From Prevotella sp. (GTDB lineage Bacteria > Bacteroidota > Bacteroidia > Bacteroidales > Bacteroidaceae): DNA of 47,712 nt. Below are positions 23,259 to 33,213 of this stretch, piece after piece. The stretch lies in the NCBI GenBank assembly GCA_017627765.1, contig JAGAGD010000059.1, positions 1-47,712 on the forward strand, given 5' to 3'. Positions within the stretch are counted from its first letter, which is position 1. Every line of letters starts with the position of its first letter. Below the pieces are notes generated by a model. The model did not search any database. It worked only from the letters and a program-made list of their open reading frames with translations, and had not been told where the DNA came from. A program made the translations under genes and the position numbers.

Positions 23259-23289
23259 CAAAGATACGATTAAGCGAGGAAAGAACAAA
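23259..23289 (-). promoter_or_regulatory. Promoter of the cobalamin riboswitch operon
   Basis: Minus-strand TTTG (plus 23286-23289) and TATCTTTG (23259-23266) are separated by 19 bases, a consensus match. Transcription starts just upstream of the aptamer. Confidence 0.8.
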
Positions 23290-23410
23290 GAAAAAATGAA
23301 ATTTTTTTTGTTTTTTCTTTTTATTTCGAGTGGAAGTATCTTATTTAAAGATAAGATTAAGCGAGGAAAGAGCAAAGAAGAAATGAAATTTTTTTGTTTT
23401 TTTCTTACAA
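23267..23410. repeat. Direct repeat duplicating the riboswitch promoter
   Basis: A block of about 52 bases beginning GATTAAGCGAGGAAAG occurs at about 23268-23320 and again at about 23354-23405. The second copy again has TTTG (23373-23376) 19 bases before a near -7 box TATCTTTA (23346-23353) on the minus strand. Confidence 0.75.
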
Positions 23411-23528
23411 TTTAAATCAACTACAGGCTTATTATAATATTCTTTTCGGGGTAAGTGATTAGTTATAAGTTAGTTTTATTTATTATAATTTGTTGCAATT
23501 ATATAGTTCGCCTGATTTGATAAAATAA

Positions 23529-26273: not shown

Positions 26274-26358
26274 GTTTAAAATAATTTAAGTTGTTATTAA
26301 CAGAATGATAATACTGTGTAATAATTTCAGGTTGTTGTTCTTATGATTCTTAGACCAA

Positions 26359-26390
26359 CAAAATTACATATTAAGTTTGAAACTAACAAA
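26359..26390 (-). promoter_or_regulatory. Proximal promoter of the M6 protease operon
   Basis: TTTG-N20-TAATTTTG on the minus strand, in the left unit of the 64-bp duplication. The leader to the ATG at 26273 would be about 80 nt. Confidence 0.7.
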
Positions 26391-26422
26391 AATAAAACTT
26401 CTTTTTATGATTCTTAGACCAA

Positions 26423-26454
26423 CAAAATTACATATTAAGTTTGAAACTAACAAA
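26423..26454 (-). promoter_or_regulatory. Distal promoter of the M6 protease operon
   Basis: This is the same sequence as the proximal promoter, 64 bases further upstream, in the right unit of the duplication. If active, transcripts from it read through the proximal copy. Confidence 0.65.
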
Positions 26455-26555
26455 AATAAAACTTCTTTTTCTAATAAATTAATAATTTTTGCGCCTAAAT
26501 GCTAATAATGTGTGTACTTTTATTATATATTCTTTTGTCTTGAATGAATATAAAA

Positions 26556-26592
26556 AAGCGGCAGAGCCTTGATAATAAAGACCCTGCCGCAC
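26556..26592 (-). terminator. Terminator beyond the distal ppdK-end-like site
   Basis: GCGGCAG (26558-26564) pairs with CTGCCGC (26584-26590), and on the minus strand the stem runs into TTTTTT. It has the same position relative to the adjacent site as the terminators at 28256 and 30440 have to theirs. Confidence 0.7.
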
Positions 26593-26636
26593 AATTATGA
26601 AAAGTTTAAAAGATTTATTCTTATACAGTAGGCGGG

Positions 26637-26735
26637 CGGCGGCTAACGGATTCAGATTATCAGTCACTTATTGAGTTAACGTGAAGTTCTGTAACCTAAA
26701 AATTTACACATCCCGCACGTTTTTACATGCTCATA
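26637..26735. other. Cassette boundary site 3 (degenerate core plus left arm)
   Basis: CGGCGGCTAAC (26637-26647), 7 bases, GATTATCAG (26655-26663), 51 bases, GCACGTTTTTACA (26715-26727), then CTCATA. The same elements with spacings 7 and 50 occur at 28331-28426. The core here no longer matches the end of ppdK beyond its GGCGGCTA part. Confidence 0.7.
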
Positions 26736-26772
26736 TCGTTTTTTCATAACAGAAAGTTTATGATTAAAAATG

Positions 26773-27855
26773 TCACAATGCCTTTACTAAAGCTCCATAT
26801 AGCGACTGAATATCTTGTTTCAGTTTCTCGAATCCTTCGGATTTTTCAAGGGTTTGTTCGTTTATGTATAGTCTTTTGTTTACTTCTATCATGATTGAGT
26901 GATATTTTGTCGGTACGGAAAACGTCTTGCTGTTGGAGAAAGGGTCATTCTTTCCCACTTTGTATCCCTTTGACTTAAAATGTTGAACAATGTTACCTAT
27001 AACTACCTCGCTAGGGCGGGTCTCGTCATCATTGTACCCAATACAAATGTCAATGTCAGGAGGATTAGAGTCCAGCAGGTTTGGCAATGCCGAAAAACTG
27101 TGGCAATCTATCAAAAGTATGCTTCCTGACAATCCTACTATTTTCTTTGAAACTTCTGAATGGAAATCTGTATATAGGGCAAATGCTTCGCTTTTTCCAC
27201 AATATGAACGTATAACCTTACCATATCCATCCCTGCGTGGAACCCAACGTGAATAGGATAATCCCAGTCCTTCCTTTTCTAGGGGATCGTTAATCAAACG
27301 CTCGACGTCACAATAAAGTCTGCAATAAGGAAATATTATGTTGTAGATGTTATTTGTTTCTTGCTCGGGAACAAATAATTCATCGGTATAATAGTCAATG
27401 AGCAACCGCTCCTCTTCATCAAGATCGTCAAAGTTGTTTTTTCCGTTAGGAAAGGAAATTGATGAATGTGGGATATGAAGAATAAGGTTTTTGTAATGAC
27501 GGTTGTCTTCATTATATACCCTGAAAAACTTTAAGATGGGGTGTAGTCCACAATCGAGTTTATATTCTTGGAGCAGCTTCGCCATTGGAGCTACAAAGCC
27601 ATCTTGAAAAGACCATCCGCCATGAGGACAGGCAGGGAGAAGATTAACCACTCTGAAGAAAATCGCGAGAAAAGCCTCGTCGGACAATTCATACCCGATT
27701 TCTTCTTCAAGATGGTACTTTAATGTTCTGAGTGCAACTTTCGTTCCAACTTCATGAAGGAATGAAACGTCTTCTAAACTATCAAGAAACGTATGATAGC
27801 TTAAATCTCCATTGAGATGTCTTTCATCCCATGACATAACTTTTTTCTTTTTCAT
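26773..27855 (-). CDS. N-formylglutamate amidohydrolase-like protein with extra N-terminal domain
   Basis: Residues about 123-350 of this 360-residue protein fit the N-formylglutamate amidohydrolase family: HIPHSS (the usual PHSG position), CDVERLINDP, LLIDCHSF and SIMIEVNKRLYI hold the expected zinc and substrate residues. The family hydrolyses N-formylglutamate or related N-acyl amino acids. Residues 1-122 (with WDERHLNGDLSYHTFLDSLE and PACPHGGWSFQDGF) are an added domain I do not recognise. The gene is alone in its cassette, has its own promoter at 28148-28178 and is preceded by a long leader with a terminator, so its expression may be attenuated. No histidine-utilisation genes are nearby, so the physiological substrate may differ. 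Confidence 0.75.
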   Translation of the reverse strand: MKKKKVMSWDERHLNGDLSYHTFLDSLEDVSFLHEVGTKVALRTLKYHLEEEIGYELSDEAFLAIFFRVVNLLPACPHGGWSFQDGFVAPMAKLLQEYKLDCGLHPILKFFRVYNEDNRHYKNLILHIPHSSISFPNGKNNFDDLDEEERLLIDYYTDELFVPEQETNNIYNIIFPYCRLYCDVERLINDPLEKEGLGLSYSRWVPRRDGYGKVIRSYCGKSEAFALYTDFHSEVSKKIVGLSGSILLIDCHSFSALPNLLDSNPPDIDICIGYNDDETRPSEVVIGNIVQHFKSKGYKVGKNDPFSNSKTFSVPTKYHSIMIEVNKRLYINEQTLEKSEGFEKLKQDIQSLYGALVKAL

Positions 27856-27945
27856 TGTTATTACTATTAATTGTTATACAAAAAAATGTGCTCCGCTGAA
27901 CATTGTGGGTATAACGACAAGTAACAACATTTGATTATGAAGAAT

Positions 27946-27990
27946 AAAAAATCCCTATATGCCGTTGACACGATCATATAAGGAAATCTA
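27946..27990 (-). terminator. Intrinsic terminator inside the leader of the amidohydrolase gene
   Basis: On the minus strand TCCTTATATG (plus 27975-27984) pairs with CATATAGGGA (27952-27961) and is followed at once by six T. It lies about 90 bases before the start codon, so it would act as an attenuator or end a small RNA. Confidence 0.7.
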
Positions 27991-28145
27991 CTGTTTCTGA
28001 GCTTAAATGAGTTTTTTGGCGTATGCCCACATCTGCTTTTCAGCTCGCCACCGTGACTCTTCGGAATTGCTCTATTCTTGAAGCTCGGTTGGCACGCATT
28101 TCTGCGTTCTTGATGTAAATTTCCGAATTTCTTTATCAATTCTGC
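27991..28145 (-). ncRNA. Candidate structured leader RNA or small RNA
   Basis: Downstream of the promoter at 28148-28178 the minus strand shows several possible helices: TTCGGAA (28121-28127) with TTCCGAA (28060-28066), a 5-bp hairpin with GAAA tetraloop (28094-28107), GCCAACCG (28086-28093) with CGGTGGC (28047-28053), and GGCG with CGCC (28046-28049, 28018-28021). A terminator follows at 27946-27990. I do not recognise it as a known riboswitch class. It could be a riboswitch-like attenuator or a 190-nt small RNA. Confidence 0.5.
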
Positions 28146-28147
28146 TG

Positions 28148-28178
28148 CAAAGATACTAGAATAAAACTAAGTGGCAAA
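28148..28178 (-). promoter_or_regulatory. Promoter of cassette 1 leader and amidohydrolase gene
   Basis: Minus-strand TTTG (28175-28178), 19 bases, TATCTTTG (28148-28155): full consensus. Confidence 0.75.
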
Positions 28179-28196
28179 ATAAACACCACAAATATT

Positions 28197-28432
28197 GCAC
28201 ATTTTGCGACGTTTTCACTCTAAAATCGTCAGAATGCATCATGCATACATAAAGTAAAAGGACCTGCCCAAACGGACAGGTCCCTTTCATTATATCAGAG
28301 AGTTTAATTACTCCTCTACGGCTGCCTGCGCGGCGGCTAACAGGTGCTGATTATCAGCGTATTACAGAGCTGTTGTAAACTACTGGCGACTCTTTGCGAC
28401 ACATTCTGCACGTTTTTACACACTCATAAATT
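28197..28432. other. Cassette boundary site 2 (right arm, terminator, ppdK-end core, left arm)
   Basis: GCACATTTTGCGACGTTTT (28197-28215) with AAAATCGTC, then a terminator hairpin, then a 22-base core (28318-28339) identical to the last codons of ppdK. In the ppdK frame this copy encodes LAAAQAAVEE-stop. After it come 9 more bases, GATTATCAG (28349-28357) and GCACGTTTTTACA (28408-28420). The right half repeats the sequence at 30390-30524; the left half repeats 26637-26735. Confidence 0.8.
28256..28290 (-). terminator. Duplicated ppdK-type terminator
   Basis: GGACCTG (28260-28266) and CAGGTCC (28277-28283) form the stem around CCCAAACGGA, nearly identical to the ppdK terminator at 30440-30472. 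Confidence 0.75.
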
Positions 28433-29080
28433 ATTATTTATATTAAATTTAGATGTGTCATATGAACCTTTATAGAGTTTTTCTGTTCCTTCTCTTGTAA
28501 AAAACCTATTCCTTATAGGTGTCCAATCACCAACCTCGATACTTCCATCAAAAAAACACAATCTATCATGTACTTTATCTGTTCCGGTTTTTCCCAAGGA
28601 ACGATAAGTTGGTACAGGTTCTATGACCTGCCCGTCTGATTCATATATCAACTTAGGCATACTCTCATTCTTGCATGCATTCAATATTTCATCTTTACAA
28701 TTCAAAGGACCAGCTATAATCAAACCACTATTATCTTTTATTGCCCTAATAAGAATTCCGCCAAATTTGCCTTCGTTATTCTTATAATGACTATCAAAGC
28801 AAATATCTATTCCGCTAAGATGATAAAACAACTGTCCTCCTTGATAATTATCACGAGGATATGTCACTTCTTGCCATTTATTTAGATTTTTGTCTTTCAA
28901 ATACATTGCCCTATCATAATAATAGAATTCTATTTCTGCAAAACGGAAAGTTTCATTCCCGCATGCGAGATGATAGTTGCTAAATAGTTCACGTGCAATT
29001 TCTGCACATTTAACTTGGATACTTTCATAGTTCGATAATCCTTCAAATGGATTCTTAAATAGTTCGAAAACTTTTTCCAT
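28424..29080 (-). CDS. Uncharacterised protein of cassette 2
   Basis: I do not recognise this 218-residue soluble protein with confidence. It has no signal peptide or membrane segment. Notable stretches are FAEIEFYYYDRAMYLKDK (about residues 46-63), GGQLFYHLSGIDICF (about 81-95), GGILIRAI, AGPLNCKDEIL and RLCFFDGS. The order of an aromatic-rich YHLSGIDICF, then GGILIRAI, then GPL slightly recalls the alkyladenine DNA glycosylase fold, but catalytic residues cannot be assigned, so this is only a hint. It lies 71 bases after the deiminase-like gene, with a possible -7 box of its own (TATATTTG at 29106-29113). Its stop lies within the left arm region of the cassette. Confidence 0.6.
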   Translation of the reverse strand: MEKVFELFKNPFEGLSNYESIQVKCAEIARELFSNYHLACGNETFRFAEIEFYYYDRAMYLKDKNLNKWQEVTYPRDNYQGGQLFYHLSGIDICFDSHYKNNEGKFGGILIRAIKDNSGLIIAGPLNCKDEILNACKNESMPKLIYESDGQVIEPVPTYRSLGKTGTDKVHDRLCFFDGSIEVGDWTPIRNRFFTREGTEKLYKGSYDTSKFNINNNL

Positions 29081-29105
29081 GATTCATTTCTTTTGATTTA
29101 TTTTG

Positions 29106-29113
29106 CAAATATA
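29106..29113 (-). promoter_or_regulatory. Possible -7 box before the unknown cassette gene
   Basis: TATATTTG on the minus strand fits TAnnTTTG, but there is no TTTG at the -33 distance. It may allow transcription separate from the upstream deiminase gene. Confidence 0.4.
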
Positions 29114-29151
29114 CTAAAAAATGGACGTTGTCCCTATTGGTAACGGAAAAA

Positions 29152-30150
29152 CTATCGCTTACATTTGGTTTTAAGCATATCATCAATCTTGTTTTTGATT
29201 TGATCTTTCTTATAATCTTCCAAATCTATTATGGGAATGCGTGCACATTTCGCTAATACTTTAAGATAATTCTCATTGATAGTCCATGTTAGGCAATTTA
29301 ATGCTCCACCATTCTCAGCTATAAAATCTCGCATCTGCACTTGATAGATATTGTCTTCATACTCGGGGTATAGTTGCTTGTATTGGGCCAATGTTTCCGC
29401 GTCTGTGACTTCATCTCCAAGTCCTGGAATGATAATGAAGTCGCATGTTTGTAAACTGTTGATATATGCCCAACTCAAGTCATCATATTTGCTTAGTTCG
29501 AGTTCTATGACTTCAAAATGCTTTGCCAGTGATGAATACATCTCTTGAGCTATCTTGTCATCGTACAGTTGCAGATTTACCAATACTTGAGGCTTGCCAG
29601 ATTTACTTATACCAACATACCTAACTATTCCATCCGTGTGACCAAAGATATCTTCTTTATCCCATGGAAGCCAAACGATTGTCAAGTCTGGTGACTGGAA
29701 AGCACATTTAAGAAGACACTCTATTTGCTCTTTGCTGAAAGATGGATTTTCGTTGAAAACTTTTTCAGTCATGACTACGTATTCCGTTTCTTTGCCTTTT
29801 TTCTTTCCTTTACAGAATACCATATTACCTCCGTCAACGACGAACGGAATATCCGCAATTTCGTAATTTTGTGCAAATGGGCAGTTTTTTATGACTTTAT
29901 CAACATTTGTAATGTACTTCTTCTTGTCTTGAAGATAATCTGGATTATAAACGAACTTAACGAAAACATACTCATCCATTTGTATTGGCATAAAATCTCT
30001 TACCCAATAGTCTTTCGTGTGAGAAACAGTTCCCATACCTTTGTGATATGTCCCAATAATGTCCCAAAGTTCTAATTTCAGTTCGGGGTAGTGTCTTTCC
30101 AACAGGCTTGAAAAGACAACCTTACTTTTTTCTTTTTCTGTTATTATCAT
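29152..30150 (-). CDS. Agmatine deiminase / peptidylarginine deiminase family protein
   Basis: This 332-residue cytoplasmic protein belongs to the guanidino-group hydrolase fold. It has YWVRDFMP at residues 48-55, DGGNMVF at 106-112, GHTDGIVRY at 170-178 and the nucleophile Cys286 in NGGALNCLTW, all matching catalytic positions of agmatine deiminase and Porphyromonas-type PAD. It lacks a signal peptide, unlike secreted PAD. The usual partner N-carbamoylputrescine amidase is not adjacent, so a role in the agmatine pathway is not supported by context. Sequence around the motifs is divergent (WVRDFMP for WxRDxGP), so the substrate may be another guanidino compound. A promoter is at 30202-30234. 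Confidence 0.82.
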   Translation of the reverse strand: MIITEKEKSKVVFSSLLERHYPELKLELWDIIGTYHKGMGTVSHTKDYWVRDFMPIQMDEYVFVKFVYNPDYLQDKKKYITNVDKVIKNCPFAQNYEIADIPFVVDGGNMVFCKGKKKGKETEYVVMTEKVFNENPSFSKEQIECLLKCAFQSPDLTIVWLPWDKEDIFGHTDGIVRYVGISKSGKPQVLVNLQLYDDKIAQEMYSSLAKHFEVIELELSKYDDLSWAYINSLQTCDFIIIPGLGDEVTDAETLAQYKQLYPEYEDNIYQVQMRDFIAENGGALNCLTWTINENYLKVLAKCARIPIIDLEDYKKDQIKNKIDDMLKTKCKR

Positions 30151-30201
30151 ATCGCAATTCTTTTTTTTGTTAACATGATGATTCGTCGACTAATCACGGC
30201 G

Positions 30202-30234
30202 CAAAGATACAACATATTTAATACTTGGGCCAAA
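30202..30234 (-). promoter_or_regulatory. Promoter of cassette 2 genes
   Basis: Minus-strand TTTG (30231-30234), 21 bases, TATCTTTG (30202-30209). The leader is about 45 nt. The gap 30151-30492 otherwise holds the cassette right arm and the ppdK terminator. Confidence 0.7.
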
Positions 30235-30389
30235 CTTTTTTGTTAACTTTTGTTAGAGTTTTCGGAATAGTAATTTATTGATTATTAATATGTTATATGA
30301 ATATTTGCATTAAAATTCCCATCGTATTTATATTATAAAAATTACATGTTTTATGTCTATGAATTAAAGTGCTAAGGAAAAATAATGAT

Positions 30390-30524
30390 GCACATTTTGC
30401 GACGTTTTACCACCAAAATCGTCTGGAGATAAAACATAAAAAGGGACCTGCCCAAACGGACAGGTCCCTTTATTAAATATGTCAGAGTTATTTTACTCCT
30501 CGACGGCTGCCTGCGCGGCGGCTA
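30390..30524. other. Cassette boundary site 1 (right arm, terminator and ppdK 3' end)
   Basis: GCACATTTTGCGACGTTTT at 30390-30408 with AAAATCGTC, then the terminator, then the last codons of ppdK with the 22-base core (30503-30524) also found at 28318-28339. This is the site 2 right half repeated at about 2.2 kb distance. Confidence 0.8.
30438..30474 (-). terminator. Terminator of ppdK
   Basis: A perfect AAAGGGACCTG/CAGGTCCCTTT stem (30440-30450 with 30461-30471) around a 10-base loop with T-rich flanks, about 20 bases after the ppdK stop. Confidence 0.85.
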
Positions 30525-33213
30525 GACGTGCGATAGGCACACGGAATGGTGAGCAAGAAGCATAGTCGAGACCAATCTTAGCACAGAACTTAACTGATGA
30601 TGGTTCACCACCATGCTCACCGCAGATACCTGTGCGGAGAGTTGGACGAACAGCACGACCCTTTTCAACAGCCATCTTAACCAACTGGCCAACGCCCTTC
30701 TGGTCGAGTACCTGGAATGGGTCAACCTTCAGAATCTTCTTGTCGAGATATACTGGGAGGAATGATGCGATGTCGTCGCGGCTGTAACCGAATGTCATCT
30801 GTGTCAAGTCGTTAGTACCGAATGAGAAGTACTCTGCCTGTTCAGCAATGCGGTCAGCGGTGAGAGCAGCACGAGGGATTTCAATCATTGTACCAACCTC
30901 GAATTCTACTTCTATGCCGTATTCTGCAAATACTTCCTTAGATACGTTCTTTATGATTTCTTTCTGCTGTTCCAACTCGTGGAGTGTACCAATCAGTGGA
31001 ACCATGATTTCTGGCATTGGGTTCTTTCCTTCTTTCTTCAGTTCGCAAGCTGCACCGAGGATGGCACGTGTCTGCATAGCTGTGATCTCTGGGAATGTGA
31101 TACCTAGACGGCAACCACGGTGCCCCAACATTGGGTTGTTCTCAGAAAGTGATTCAACGCGGCGGCGAATAGCCTCAACGCTTACACCCATTTCCTTAGC
31201 CATTGTCTCCTGACCTGCTGCATCGTGTGGTACAAACTCATGGAGTGGTGGGTCGAGCAGACGAATGTTTACTGGCAGTCCGTCCATTGCTTCGAGGATA
31301 CCCTTGAAGTCAGCCTTCTGATAAGGAAGGAGTTTAGCAAGAGCTTTCTCGCGTCCTTCAACAGTGCTTGAGAGAATCATCTCACGCATTGCGATAATCT
31401 TCTTATCTTCGAAGAACATGTGCTCAGTACGTGTCAGACCAATACCTTTAGCTCCGAATGCGCGAGCAATCTGTGCATCGTGTGGAGTATCGGCATTGGT
31501 ACGAACCTGCAGTTTTGTATATTTGTCGCAAAGGTCCATAAGTTCCTTGAAGTCGCCGCTAAGTTCAGCAGCCTTTGTTGGAACTTCGCCTGCATATACC
31601 TGTCCTGTTGTACCGTTGATAGAGATGAAGTCACCTTCTTTATAAACAACACCATCGATTTCAACAGTCTTAGCCTTATAGTCAACATTTAGTGCGCCAA
31701 CACCAGATACGCAGCATTTACCCATACCACGAGCAACAACGGCAGCGTGAGATGTCATACCGCCACGAGCTGTCAGGATTCCTTCTGCGGCAGCCATACC
31801 TGCGAGGTCTTCTGGTGAAGTCTCAATACGAACAAGTACTACTTTGTGTCCGTCTTCGTTCCAAGCCTTTGCGTCGTCAGCGTGGAAAACAATCTGACCA
31901 CAACCTGCACCTGGAGAAGCTGGCAGGCCTTGAGCTATAACCTTAGCCTTAGAAAGTGCCATCTTGTCGAATACAGGGTGGAGAAGTTCATCTAGCTTGT
32001 TTGGCTCGCAGCGCATGATGGCTGTCTTCTCGTCAATCTTTCCTTCGTGAAGCAGATCGATAGCAATCTTAACCATTGCAGCACCTGTACGCTTACCGTT
32101 ACGAGTCTGTAAGAACCAGAGTTTGCCTTCTTGTACGGTGAACTCCATGTCTTGCATGTCGTGGTAGTGGTTTTCAAGTTTTTCCTGAATAGCGTTCAGT
32201 TCAGCATAGATTTCTGGCATTGCCTCTTCCATAGAAGGATACTTAGCAGCACGCTCTTCTTCAGAGATACCTGCACGCTCAGCCCAACGCTGTGAACCTA
32301 TCTTAGTAATCTGCTGTGGTGTACGGATACCAGCAACAACGTCTTCGCCCTGTGCGTTTACGAGGTACTCACCGTTGAATATGTTTTCTCCGTTAGCGGC
32401 ATCGCGGCTGAAGCATACACCTGTAGCACTTGTATCGCCCATGTTTCCGAATACCATAGCCATAACAGAAACGGCTGTTCCCCATTCGTCAGGAATACCC
32501 TCCATTTTGCGGTAGAGGATAGCACGCTCGTTCATCCAGCTGCGGAATACTGCGCAGATTGCACCCCAGAGTTGTTCGATAGGATCGTTAGGGAAGCTCT
32601 TGCCTGTGCGTTCCTTGATGGCATCCTTGAAGAGTCGAACAAGTTTCTTCAGTTCGTCTACTGTCAAGTCTTTATCAAGTTTGATGCCGCGTTCAGCTTT
32701 AACGCTTTCGATAATTTCTTCAAATGGATCGATATCTTCCTTGTTTACAGGCTTCATTTCCAAAACGACATCGCCATACATCTGTACGAAACGGCGATAA
32801 GAGTCGTAAACGAAGTGAGGATTGTTGGTCTTTCTAACCATTCCTTCAGCAACCTCGTCGTTCAAACCAAGGTTCAAGATGGTGTCCATCATACCTGGCA
32901 TTGAAGCGCGTGCACCAGAACGAACTGATACAAGCAGTGGGTTCTCAACATCACCGAACTTTGAATTCATCAGAGTCTCGATATGTTTTACAGCTGCGTT
33001 AACTTCGTCTTGCAGCAACTCCATGATCTTTTCCTGACCAACTTTGTAGTATTCGTTGCAGCAGTCGGTTGTGATTGTGAAACCTGGAGGCACTGGTACA
33101 CCGATAAGGTTCATTTCGGCAAGGTTAGCACCCTTACCACCAAGAGCCTCTCTCATTTTAGCATTACCTTCAGCTTTACCGTTACCAAAGGTATAAACTC
33201 TTTTTTCGCTCAT
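30493..33213 (-). CDS. ppdK: Pyruvate, phosphate dikinase
   Basis: This 906-residue cytoplasmic enzyme interconverts pyruvate + ATP + Pi and phosphoenolpyruvate + AMP + PPi. It has the N-terminal ATP-grasp domain (GGKGANLAEM at about 26-35, SVRSGARASMPGMMDT), the swivelling phosphohistidine domain with His489 in GGMTSHAAVVARGMGK, and the C-terminal PEP/pyruvate barrel (GLTRTEHMF, HRGCRLGI, FSFGTNDLTQMTFG, CGEHGG). Full length. Its last ten codons (LAAAQAAVEE-stop) and terminator recur at 28257-28339, so the 3' end appears to be an insertion target for small cassettes. A strong promoter lies at 33262-33293. Confidence 0.97.
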   Translation of the reverse strand: MSEKRVYTFGNGKAEGNAKMREALGGKGANLAEMNLIGVPVPPGFTITTDCCNEYYKVGQEKIMELLQDEVNAAVKHIETLMNSKFGDVENPLLVSVRSGARASMPGMMDTILNLGLNDEVAEGMVRKTNNPHFVYDSYRRFVQMYGDVVLEMKPVNKEDIDPFEEIIESVKAERGIKLDKDLTVDELKKLVRLFKDAIKERTGKSFPNDPIEQLWGAICAVFRSWMNERAILYRKMEGIPDEWGTAVSVMAMVFGNMGDTSATGVCFSRDAANGENIFNGEYLVNAQGEDVVAGIRTPQQITKIGSQRWAERAGISEEERAAKYPSMEEAMPEIYAELNAIQEKLENHYHDMQDMEFTVQEGKLWFLQTRNGKRTGAAMVKIAIDLLHEGKIDEKTAIMRCEPNKLDELLHPVFDKMALSKAKVIAQGLPASPGAGCGQIVFHADDAKAWNEDGHKVVLVRIETSPEDLAGMAAAEGILTARGGMTSHAAVVARGMGKCCVSGVGALNVDYKAKTVEIDGVVYKEGDFISINGTTGQVYAGEVPTKAAELSGDFKELMDLCDKYTKLQVRTNADTPHDAQIARAFGAKGIGLTRTEHMFFEDKKIIAMREMILSSTVEGREKALAKLLPYQKADFKGILEAMDGLPVNIRLLDPPLHEFVPHDAAGQETMAKEMGVSVEAIRRRVESLSENNPMLGHRGCRLGITFPEITAMQTRAILGAACELKKEGKNPMPEIMVPLIGTLHELEQQKEIIKNVSKEVFAEYGIEVEFEVGTMIEIPRAALTADRIAEQAEYFSFGTNDLTQMTFGYSRDDIASFLPVYLDKKILKVDPFQVLDQKGVGQLVKMAVEKGRAVRPTLRTGICGEHGGEPSSVKFCAKIGLDYASCSPFRVPIARLAAAQAAVEE

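Follow-up and report, generated by a model that had tools for sequence, protein, structure and literature searches.

Stacked integrase-less units at the 3' end of ppdK in a Prevotella genome

Three ppdK-end sites around two gene blocks

The window analysed in this study is a stretch of 47,712 nucleotides from Prevotella sp. (assembly GCA_017627765.1, contig JAGAGD010000059.1), the minus strand of which carries ppdK, the gene of pyruvate phosphate dikinase, followed by two short gene blocks of 2.2 kb (block 1) and 1.7 kb (block 2) lying between repeated copies of the ppdK 3' end (Table 1). Read along this strand, the ppdK end gives way to a terminator, an arm-like motif, block 1 and its right end, upon which a second ppdK end with terminator and motif, block 2 and a related right end follow. 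An original prediction, made from the letters of the window alone, had pointed to a 22-base segment of the last ppdK codons as recurring within this region, and the repeat is indeed exact (30503-30524 and 28318-28339). Chance is ruled out as its source by shuffling: the 21-base core has two exact matches in the window and none, at up to three mismatches, in 100 dinucleotide shuffles. The terminators accompanying both copies, described as nearly identical, agree in 97% of their bases, and the motif GCACATTTTGCGACGTTTT is present next to both, at 28197 and 30390, with 0.02 occurrences expected. Also the spaced series claimed for the distal sides is borne out. CGGCGGCTAAC-N7-GATTATCAG occurs exactly at 26637 and 28331 (expected 0), and GATTATCAG is separated from GCACGTTTTTACA by N50 at 28349-28420 and by N51 at 26655-26727, a pattern without any further match in the 2.48-Mb assembly, which is 88% complete.

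That three boundary sites enclose two blocks likewise stood, with the correction that the third site holds a decayed ppdK end and that the right end reaches to about 26613. A profile of 36 right ends from the window and other genomes, which includes site 2 (the 120.5 bits of this site in Table 1 are thus scored by a profile of which it is part) and excludes site 3, recognises the latter at 56.7 bits (E 7e-16). Since its ppdK end is decayed, site 3 is probably the oldest boundary, and the inverted repeat behind it probably belonged to an older ppdK end. Immediately outside site 3, at 26341-26470, a 64-bp tandem duplication is located (2.0 copies, 100% matches).

The statement that neither block encodes a recombinase is upheld by a Pfam search with the three main proteins and by an integrase profile run against all open reading frames (ORFs) of at least 90 aa. 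Pfam, applied to the three main proteins only, also revealed no conjugation or mobilization genes.

Table 1. Features of the ppdK end and the adjoining blocks (window coordinates)
Feature	Position	Strand	Remark
ppdK (pyruvate phosphate dikinase, 906 aa), target gene	30493..33213	-	Pfam PPDK_N, PEP-utilizers, PEP-utilizers_C
Site 1: core, final ppdK codons and stop, TAGCCGCCGCGCAGGCAGCCGTCGAGGAGTAA on minus strand; left end of block 1	30493..30524	-	
Terminator-like inverted repeat of block 1 left end, GGACCTGTCC type	30440..30471	-	repeat family D9
Left arm-like motif of block 1, CGTCGCAAAATGTGC on minus strand	30390..30408	-	
PAD_porph-family protein, 332 aa, block 1	29152..30150	-	98.5% identical protein in the G338 copy of the block
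218-aa protein without Pfam family, block 1	28424..29080	-	95.3% identical protein in the G338 copy
Right end of block 1 including site 2: arm GTGTAAAAACGTGCAGAATGTGTCG ... CTGATAATC-N7-GT, core next	28303..28428	-	profile 120.5 bits
Site 2: displaced core, ppdK end and stop; left end of block 2	28308..28339	-	
Terminator-like inverted repeat of block 2 left end	28256..28287	-	repeat family D9
Left arm-like motif of block 2	28197..28215	-	
N-formylglutamate-amidohydrolase-family protein, 360 aa, block 2	26773..27855	-	Pfam PF05013, E 4.5e-27
Right end of block 2 including site 3: arm TGTAAAAACGTGC ... CTGATAATC-N7-GTTAGCCGCCGC and decayed ppdK end	26613..26736	-	profile 56.7 bits
Terminator-like inverted repeat behind decayed third end	26558..26590	-	read from sequence

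ppdK ends and tyrosine integrases in other genomes

In the genus, 175 of 299 genomes contain DNA of the ppdK-end pattern (LAAAQAAV[ED]-like); the reversed control matched none. In at least 21 of the 299, a single contig has two or more copies on the same strand, a count which, with 20 genomes re-queried, is a lower bound. The complete genome of Segatella baroniae B14 (G486, NZ_CP091799.1), a member of the same genus, contains, in a stretch of 11 kb, ppdK together with three displaced sites, of which the last is decayed. Stretches of related species comprise stacks of one to three units as well as ppdK ends without a detected displaced site; the empty, one-, two- and three-block states whose comparison had been proposed are therefore all represented among related species. 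Neither is the gene order the same everywhere, which would have spoken against cassettes, for one and the same block differs in its array position between two species. The displaced sites are of several arm types and, judged by inspection without a count, adjacent units of a stack are usually unlike. In several metagenome-assembled genomes (e.g. G338:C30, G585:C9, G467:C42, G575:C84) a core copy is situated about 77-86 bp from the contig end, as if the assembly had been broken at the repeated site. At one locus (L009) a right end of the window's type is present whose core passes into unrelated sequence after CAGGC, and this site may either be truncated or lie away from ppdK.

A family of tyrosine integrases is encoded behind ppdK in a number of genomes. 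On a 15.7-kb contig of Candidatus Minthosoma equi (G238), which belongs to another genus, a tyrosine-recombinase gene of 492 aa (Phage_int_SAM_5, E 6e-6) starts about 250 bp past a displaced core, and in G584 the gene of a 498-aa relative begins 201 bp beyond the end of the ppdK match. A search of the genus at E 1e-30 yielded matches in 59 of 299 genomes. Near full length are 25 genes from 23 genomes (identity of 43% or more across 404 or more of the 498 residues), the remaining matches being partial or of a general kind at 25-36% identity. For 20 of the 25, ppdK is located just upstream on the contig according to tblastn, in 19 cases at a distance of 183-423 bp; the integrase gene of G496 lies 1.7 kb behind a 3' part of ppdK, and one of the 20 (G504) is on the opposite strand. 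With the gene of G541, which follows ppdK sequence at a contig edge, the linked total amounts to 21 of 25, while the other four (G457, G357, G343 and G584:C60) are unlinked to ppdK on their contigs. Across the bacterial family, a search at E 1e-80 detected the integrase in 27 of 301 genomes, and 14 of 30 genera are represented. An alignment of its members shows R348, H349, H372 and Y382 to be conserved and the first arginine position to vary (R, Q or H). In PHROGs the commonest family is integrase for seven of ten members, and the profile has no match to solved structures at E 0.01. A TraG homologue is found near an integrase-family gene in G091, G548 and G249. At about 155.3 kb of a G496 contig (L073, G496:C3), a second, 3' part of ppdK (506-aa ORF) is positioned 55 kb past the first ppdK end, and it is this second part which carries the integrase-bearing unit.

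Phages carry ppdK ends as well. In IMG/VR, relatives of the integrase were detected at 61 loci, 28 of which have a ppdK-type core within 700 bp upstream, ten of these together with ppdK. In the complete genomes of the Bacteroides phages BKO1-TP3 and BS-TP4 the core and a stop codon precede the integrase gene by 326 and 290 bp, respectively, and there is no ppdK at the core. As these genomes hold core and stop codon without ppdK, incoming DNA brings the replacement end along. A phage origin of the window's own ends was considered and dropped, exact scans of IMG/VR having returned no match to the right arm, to the terminator or to either of two additional arm patterns.

Integrase-less and integrase-bearing units have ends in common, of other types than those of the window. 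Among 28 complete units, picked by hand, which range from 1.4 to 20.5 kb (median 3.7 kb), three contain the integrase and 25 do not, and none of the other ORFs of at least 90 aa in these units reaches E 0.1 against the integrase profile. The right end of the integrase-less G440 unit matches that of the integrase-bearing G496 unit to 95% over about 165 bp, and the same holds for a G474 unit, cut by the contig start, and the integrase-bearing G413 unit. On the left side, the integrase-less G497 unit resembles the integrase-bearing G353 unit in 189 of 219 aligned bases. In G091, from another genus, ppdK, the integrase gene, a TraG-family gene (TIGR03783, above cut-off) and a displaced site 92 kb off are joined on a single contig.

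We consider it highly likely that the ppdK 3' end is an attachment site (attB) and that the window represents two integrase-less insertions resembling cis-mobilizable elements (CIMEs); the sites, the arms and their recurrence support the predicted two site-specific insertions, each with its own gene end. The attB would be that of a tyrosine-integrase family of Bacteroidales conjugative elements and temperate phages. The joined ends of such an element would carry a copy of the last ppdK codons, the stop codon and a terminator, and because of this copy each insertion would supply ppdK with a new end and displace the old one to the far side. The outer of the window's two units would be the older one, as its far end is decayed. 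Plain homologous duplication of the ppdK terminator region without any site-specific insertion appears scarcely credible by comparison. Tail and terminator segments of about 100 bp do recur from one species' array to another's, and the two known copies of block 1 are unlike in these segments, as duplication might bring about. The displaced copies, however, start in the core and are preceded by arms which are absent from ppdK, so that terminator duplication alone is ruled out. Furthermore, the same junction adjoins many different contents, the right-end profile holds across genomes, the integrase family resides at the same place and phages carry the junction.

Origin and movement of the integrase-less units

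Block 1 is found as one unit in two contexts. It is also present in a genome of another species (G338), where 1911 of 1951 bases (98%) are identical, compared with 582 of 705 (83%) for ppdK. There it sits between two other sites. In place of ppdK, a right end of a different type precedes it, and on the downstream side the sequence diverges from the window after the second tail. The identity sets in with the left motif, past the terminator; the tails and terminators of the two copies differ. Given the 98% identity against 83% in ppdK together with different neighbours, block 1 has moved horizontally as a bounded unit.

This observation bears on the possibility that both blocks arrived with an integrase, deleted it after insertion and are now immobile scars. 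Several findings would fit such a decay in place. The integrase-less block of G381 matches the final 2161 bp of the 92-kb G091 unit at 97.7% identity and has a left end different from that of G091, with a truncated gene at the fusion; since a G091-type end is fused there to another left end with a truncated gene, this block is best regarded as a deletion derivative of an element like that of G091. Partial integrases exist behind or near ppdK (G386), the third site of the window is decayed, and the complete B14 genome has a three-block stack and no integrase of the ppdK-linked family at E 1e-30. In contrast, the ends of block 1 are intact and the block is nearly identical in two species in different contexts, hence it moved after losing, or without, an integrase. 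We regard decay in place as possible for the window, though not as the probable course. According to the reading we prefer, the two blocks would have been inserted either by an integrase acting in trans or, through accretion, as a tandem with an integrase-bearing element. An integrase which they themselves carried and then lost would not have been involved, and they may still be able to move.

Rather unlikely, in our estimation, is a dedicated non-autonomous class defined by the GGACCTGTCC tail, the left motif CGTCGCAWAATRTGC and the right arm GTGTAAAAACGYGC, which never contained an integrase and depends on a partner for its movement in trans, in the manner of satellites or gene cassettes. 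The left-end type of the window occurs on 11 of 26 integrase-less and on none of 26 integrase-bearing left ends (Fisher p 0.0003), classes which were defined after inspection of hand-picked sites. The window's right arm is present in 13 of 299 genomes, once in each, in 11 of them with a full displaced core; in G407 the core is truncated, and in G533 it is decayed, 2.8 kb behind ppdK. Against such a class speaks the tail itself. Of 33 tails of the GGACCTGTCC type, 14 are the last in their stretch and lack the left motif, which is found on 12 of the 33 (8 of these then followed by another site) and on 2 of 81 other tails. Some of these tails stand at ppdK ends that lack a displaced site altogether (G401, G519, G578); the type is thus also the native ppdK tail of the clade and makes a weak marker. 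Nor did a recombinase linked to the same arms, for which the original prediction had suggested looking elsewhere, come to light, either in the 13 arm-bearing genomes or by exact scans of IMG/VR, and in the same genomes and scans no integrase-bearing parent with the window's ends was found. The lack of an integrase-bearing partner is a weak argument, as the known integrase-bearing right ends are few (those of G496, G413 and G091, besides an atypical one in G418). Slightly less likely still is the wider proposal that, in Prevotella relatives, the window's ends mark a permanent class of units which never had an integrase, collects and spreads small cargo (PAD-like, N-formylglutamate-amidohydrolase-like, Fic) behind ppdK and is moved in trans by the integrases of incoming ppdK-targeting conjugative elements or phages. 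If true, a housekeeping-gene end would here be the anchor of a cassette system.

A number of observations weigh against our interpretation of the window as mobile insertions served by this integrase family. None of the 26 integrase-bearing left ends is of its type, and none of the 13 genomes with its right arm has an integrase of the family beside that arm. The sole integrase relative in the window's own assembly, 88% complete, is a distant one of 27% identity on contig 59. The arm-motif count (20 against 4.9 expected, 18 against 4.0, yet also 11 against 3.6) does not discriminate between units and ppdK ends that have no displaced site. Neither a circular form nor a strain-level empty site was seen. 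A block with a Fic gene, found at 12 loci behind ppdK or in an array stretch, is 90.5% identical between G468 and G569 through ppdK and block alike, and between G585 and G262 it shows 88% identity compared with 86-91% in its surroundings. In these two pairs it looks inherited and not newly moved. The Fic block was therefore dropped as a sign of recent transfer, its divergence about equalling that of the flanks in the two pairs compared.

The distant integrase of contig 59 lies together with TraG-like stretches, and this contig seems to hold another conjugative element.

Relation to known elements and cargo of the units

SCC elements (staphylococcal cassette chromosome) at rlmH of staphylococci also stand in tandem behind a protein gene, some units with and others without recombinase genes, and every unit restores the 3' end of that gene; they use large serine recombinases unlike the tyrosine integrases considered here. 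Integron gene cassettes are small integrase-less units in a row at one site. An integron-like array, in which a single resident integrase captures free gene cassettes one after another, could account for short units of one to four genes at one site, for the direct repeat and for the exchange of a unit between species. Nevertheless, no integron integrase or attC was seen (no dedicated attC search was made), the units bring terminators of their own and contain genes in both orientations, the target is the end of a protein-coding gene, adjacent units differ in their end types, and integrase-bearing units are themselves elements at the site. We therefore judge this explanation very improbable, and the predicted likeness to integron cassettes goes too far. 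As a candidate for the window, an integron array was discarded on the grounds that the boundaries are ppdK-end copies, that no recombinase gene is present in the blocks and that an attC-like anatomy is missing.

The claim that no such system had been described at ppdK does not hold for the attachment site. For the conjugative transposon PvCTn and 19 related ones, a family of Bacteroides/Phocaeicola, a 20-bp attB in the ppdK 3' end, regeneration of the stop codon and experimentally shown transfer have been published, and five further elements with related integrases are reported at the same ppdK motif (PMC11005914). The motif given there, GYSGCNCARGCKGCHRTHGA, fits the window except for GCA instead of GCK in its fourth codon. 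The window shares with this family the ppdK 3'-end target, imperfect direct repeats at both ends and a regenerated stop codon (PMC11005914). The integrase family described above occupies the same place as that of PvCTn (BVU3359), to which we liken it by position. In contrast, the PvCTn elements are large and equipped with their own integrase and type IV secretion system, whereas the units of the window measure 1.7-2.2 kb, are stacked and have neither a BVU3359-like integrase nor a secretion system by Pfam and the integrase profile. The words 'tandem', 'array', 'satellite' and 'Prevotella' do not occur in the text of that article (PMC11005914). Beyond this article, the literature search revealed, at the level of search results, no description of integrase-less stacks at ppdK.

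The closest counterparts are CIMEs, elements which are defined as retaining attL and attR and having lost their integration and transfer genes (PMC5704250, PMC7563491). In Streptococcus salivarius they measure 1.2-13 kb and form tandems at the 3' ends of rpmG, rpsI, fda and rplL, and Streptococcus CIMEs are also located at tRNA ends (PMC5704250, PMC7563491). Like these, the units of the window have both attachment sites (sites 1-3 with their arms), lack integrase and, as far as Pfam is concerned, conjugation genes, contain cargo and are stacked one behind the other where a protein gene ends. They differ from the Streptococcus CIMEs in phylum, site and integrase family. Derivation from an integrative and conjugative element is seen for the relative in G381 and not for the window's blocks, and no such element, nor an integrative and mobilizable one, lies beside the window's stack. 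We read the window's blocks as integrase-less integrative elements in a hot spot, and the novelty narrows to a variant of CIME-like stacks at a published attachment site. What is new are the ppdK stacks in Prevotella relatives, one of them in a complete genome without detected family integrase, and the left-end type counted on integrase-less units only.

The ppdK end of a gut-type bacterium would thus be a collecting point for mobile genes. On this reading, conjugative elements, phages and small units free of an integrase all land at one housekeeping-gene end in many genera of one family, and small cargo can pass between species without an integrase in the unit. As a ppdK-specific conjugative transposon has been shown to transfer in the laboratory (PMC11005914), movement of integrase-less units in trans is directly testable. 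Copies of the ppdK end provide a simple marker for hidden cargo islands, and their repetition offers a reason for contig breaks in metagenomes at this place.

Regarding the cargo itself, 61 proteins from 22 units were surveyed, and the best 25 of 66 Pfam families and 25 of 75 PADLOC families were considered. Small cargo among the matches listed comprises Fic and AbiE toxin-antitoxin-type genes, glycoside hydrolases, transporters and amidohydrolases. PADLOC gave no match for the three proteins of the window, and blastn of the two blocks gave none in plasmids. Relatives of the N-formylglutamate amidohydrolase of block 2 were found in 3 of 69 other genomes searched, each time in a stretch without a ppdK-end site, hence this cargo is not specific to the array. 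The DUF4172-Fic gene of the 12 loci mentioned above (e.g. L032:4042-5337, L112, L110) is combined with differing second genes (204, 131 or 410+184 aa), which are perhaps partners in a toxin-antitoxin-type system. Elsewhere in the window, a direct repeat of 67 nt is found at 23260-23326 and 23347-23413 in an AT-rich stretch without a long ORF, its two copies being 88% identical.

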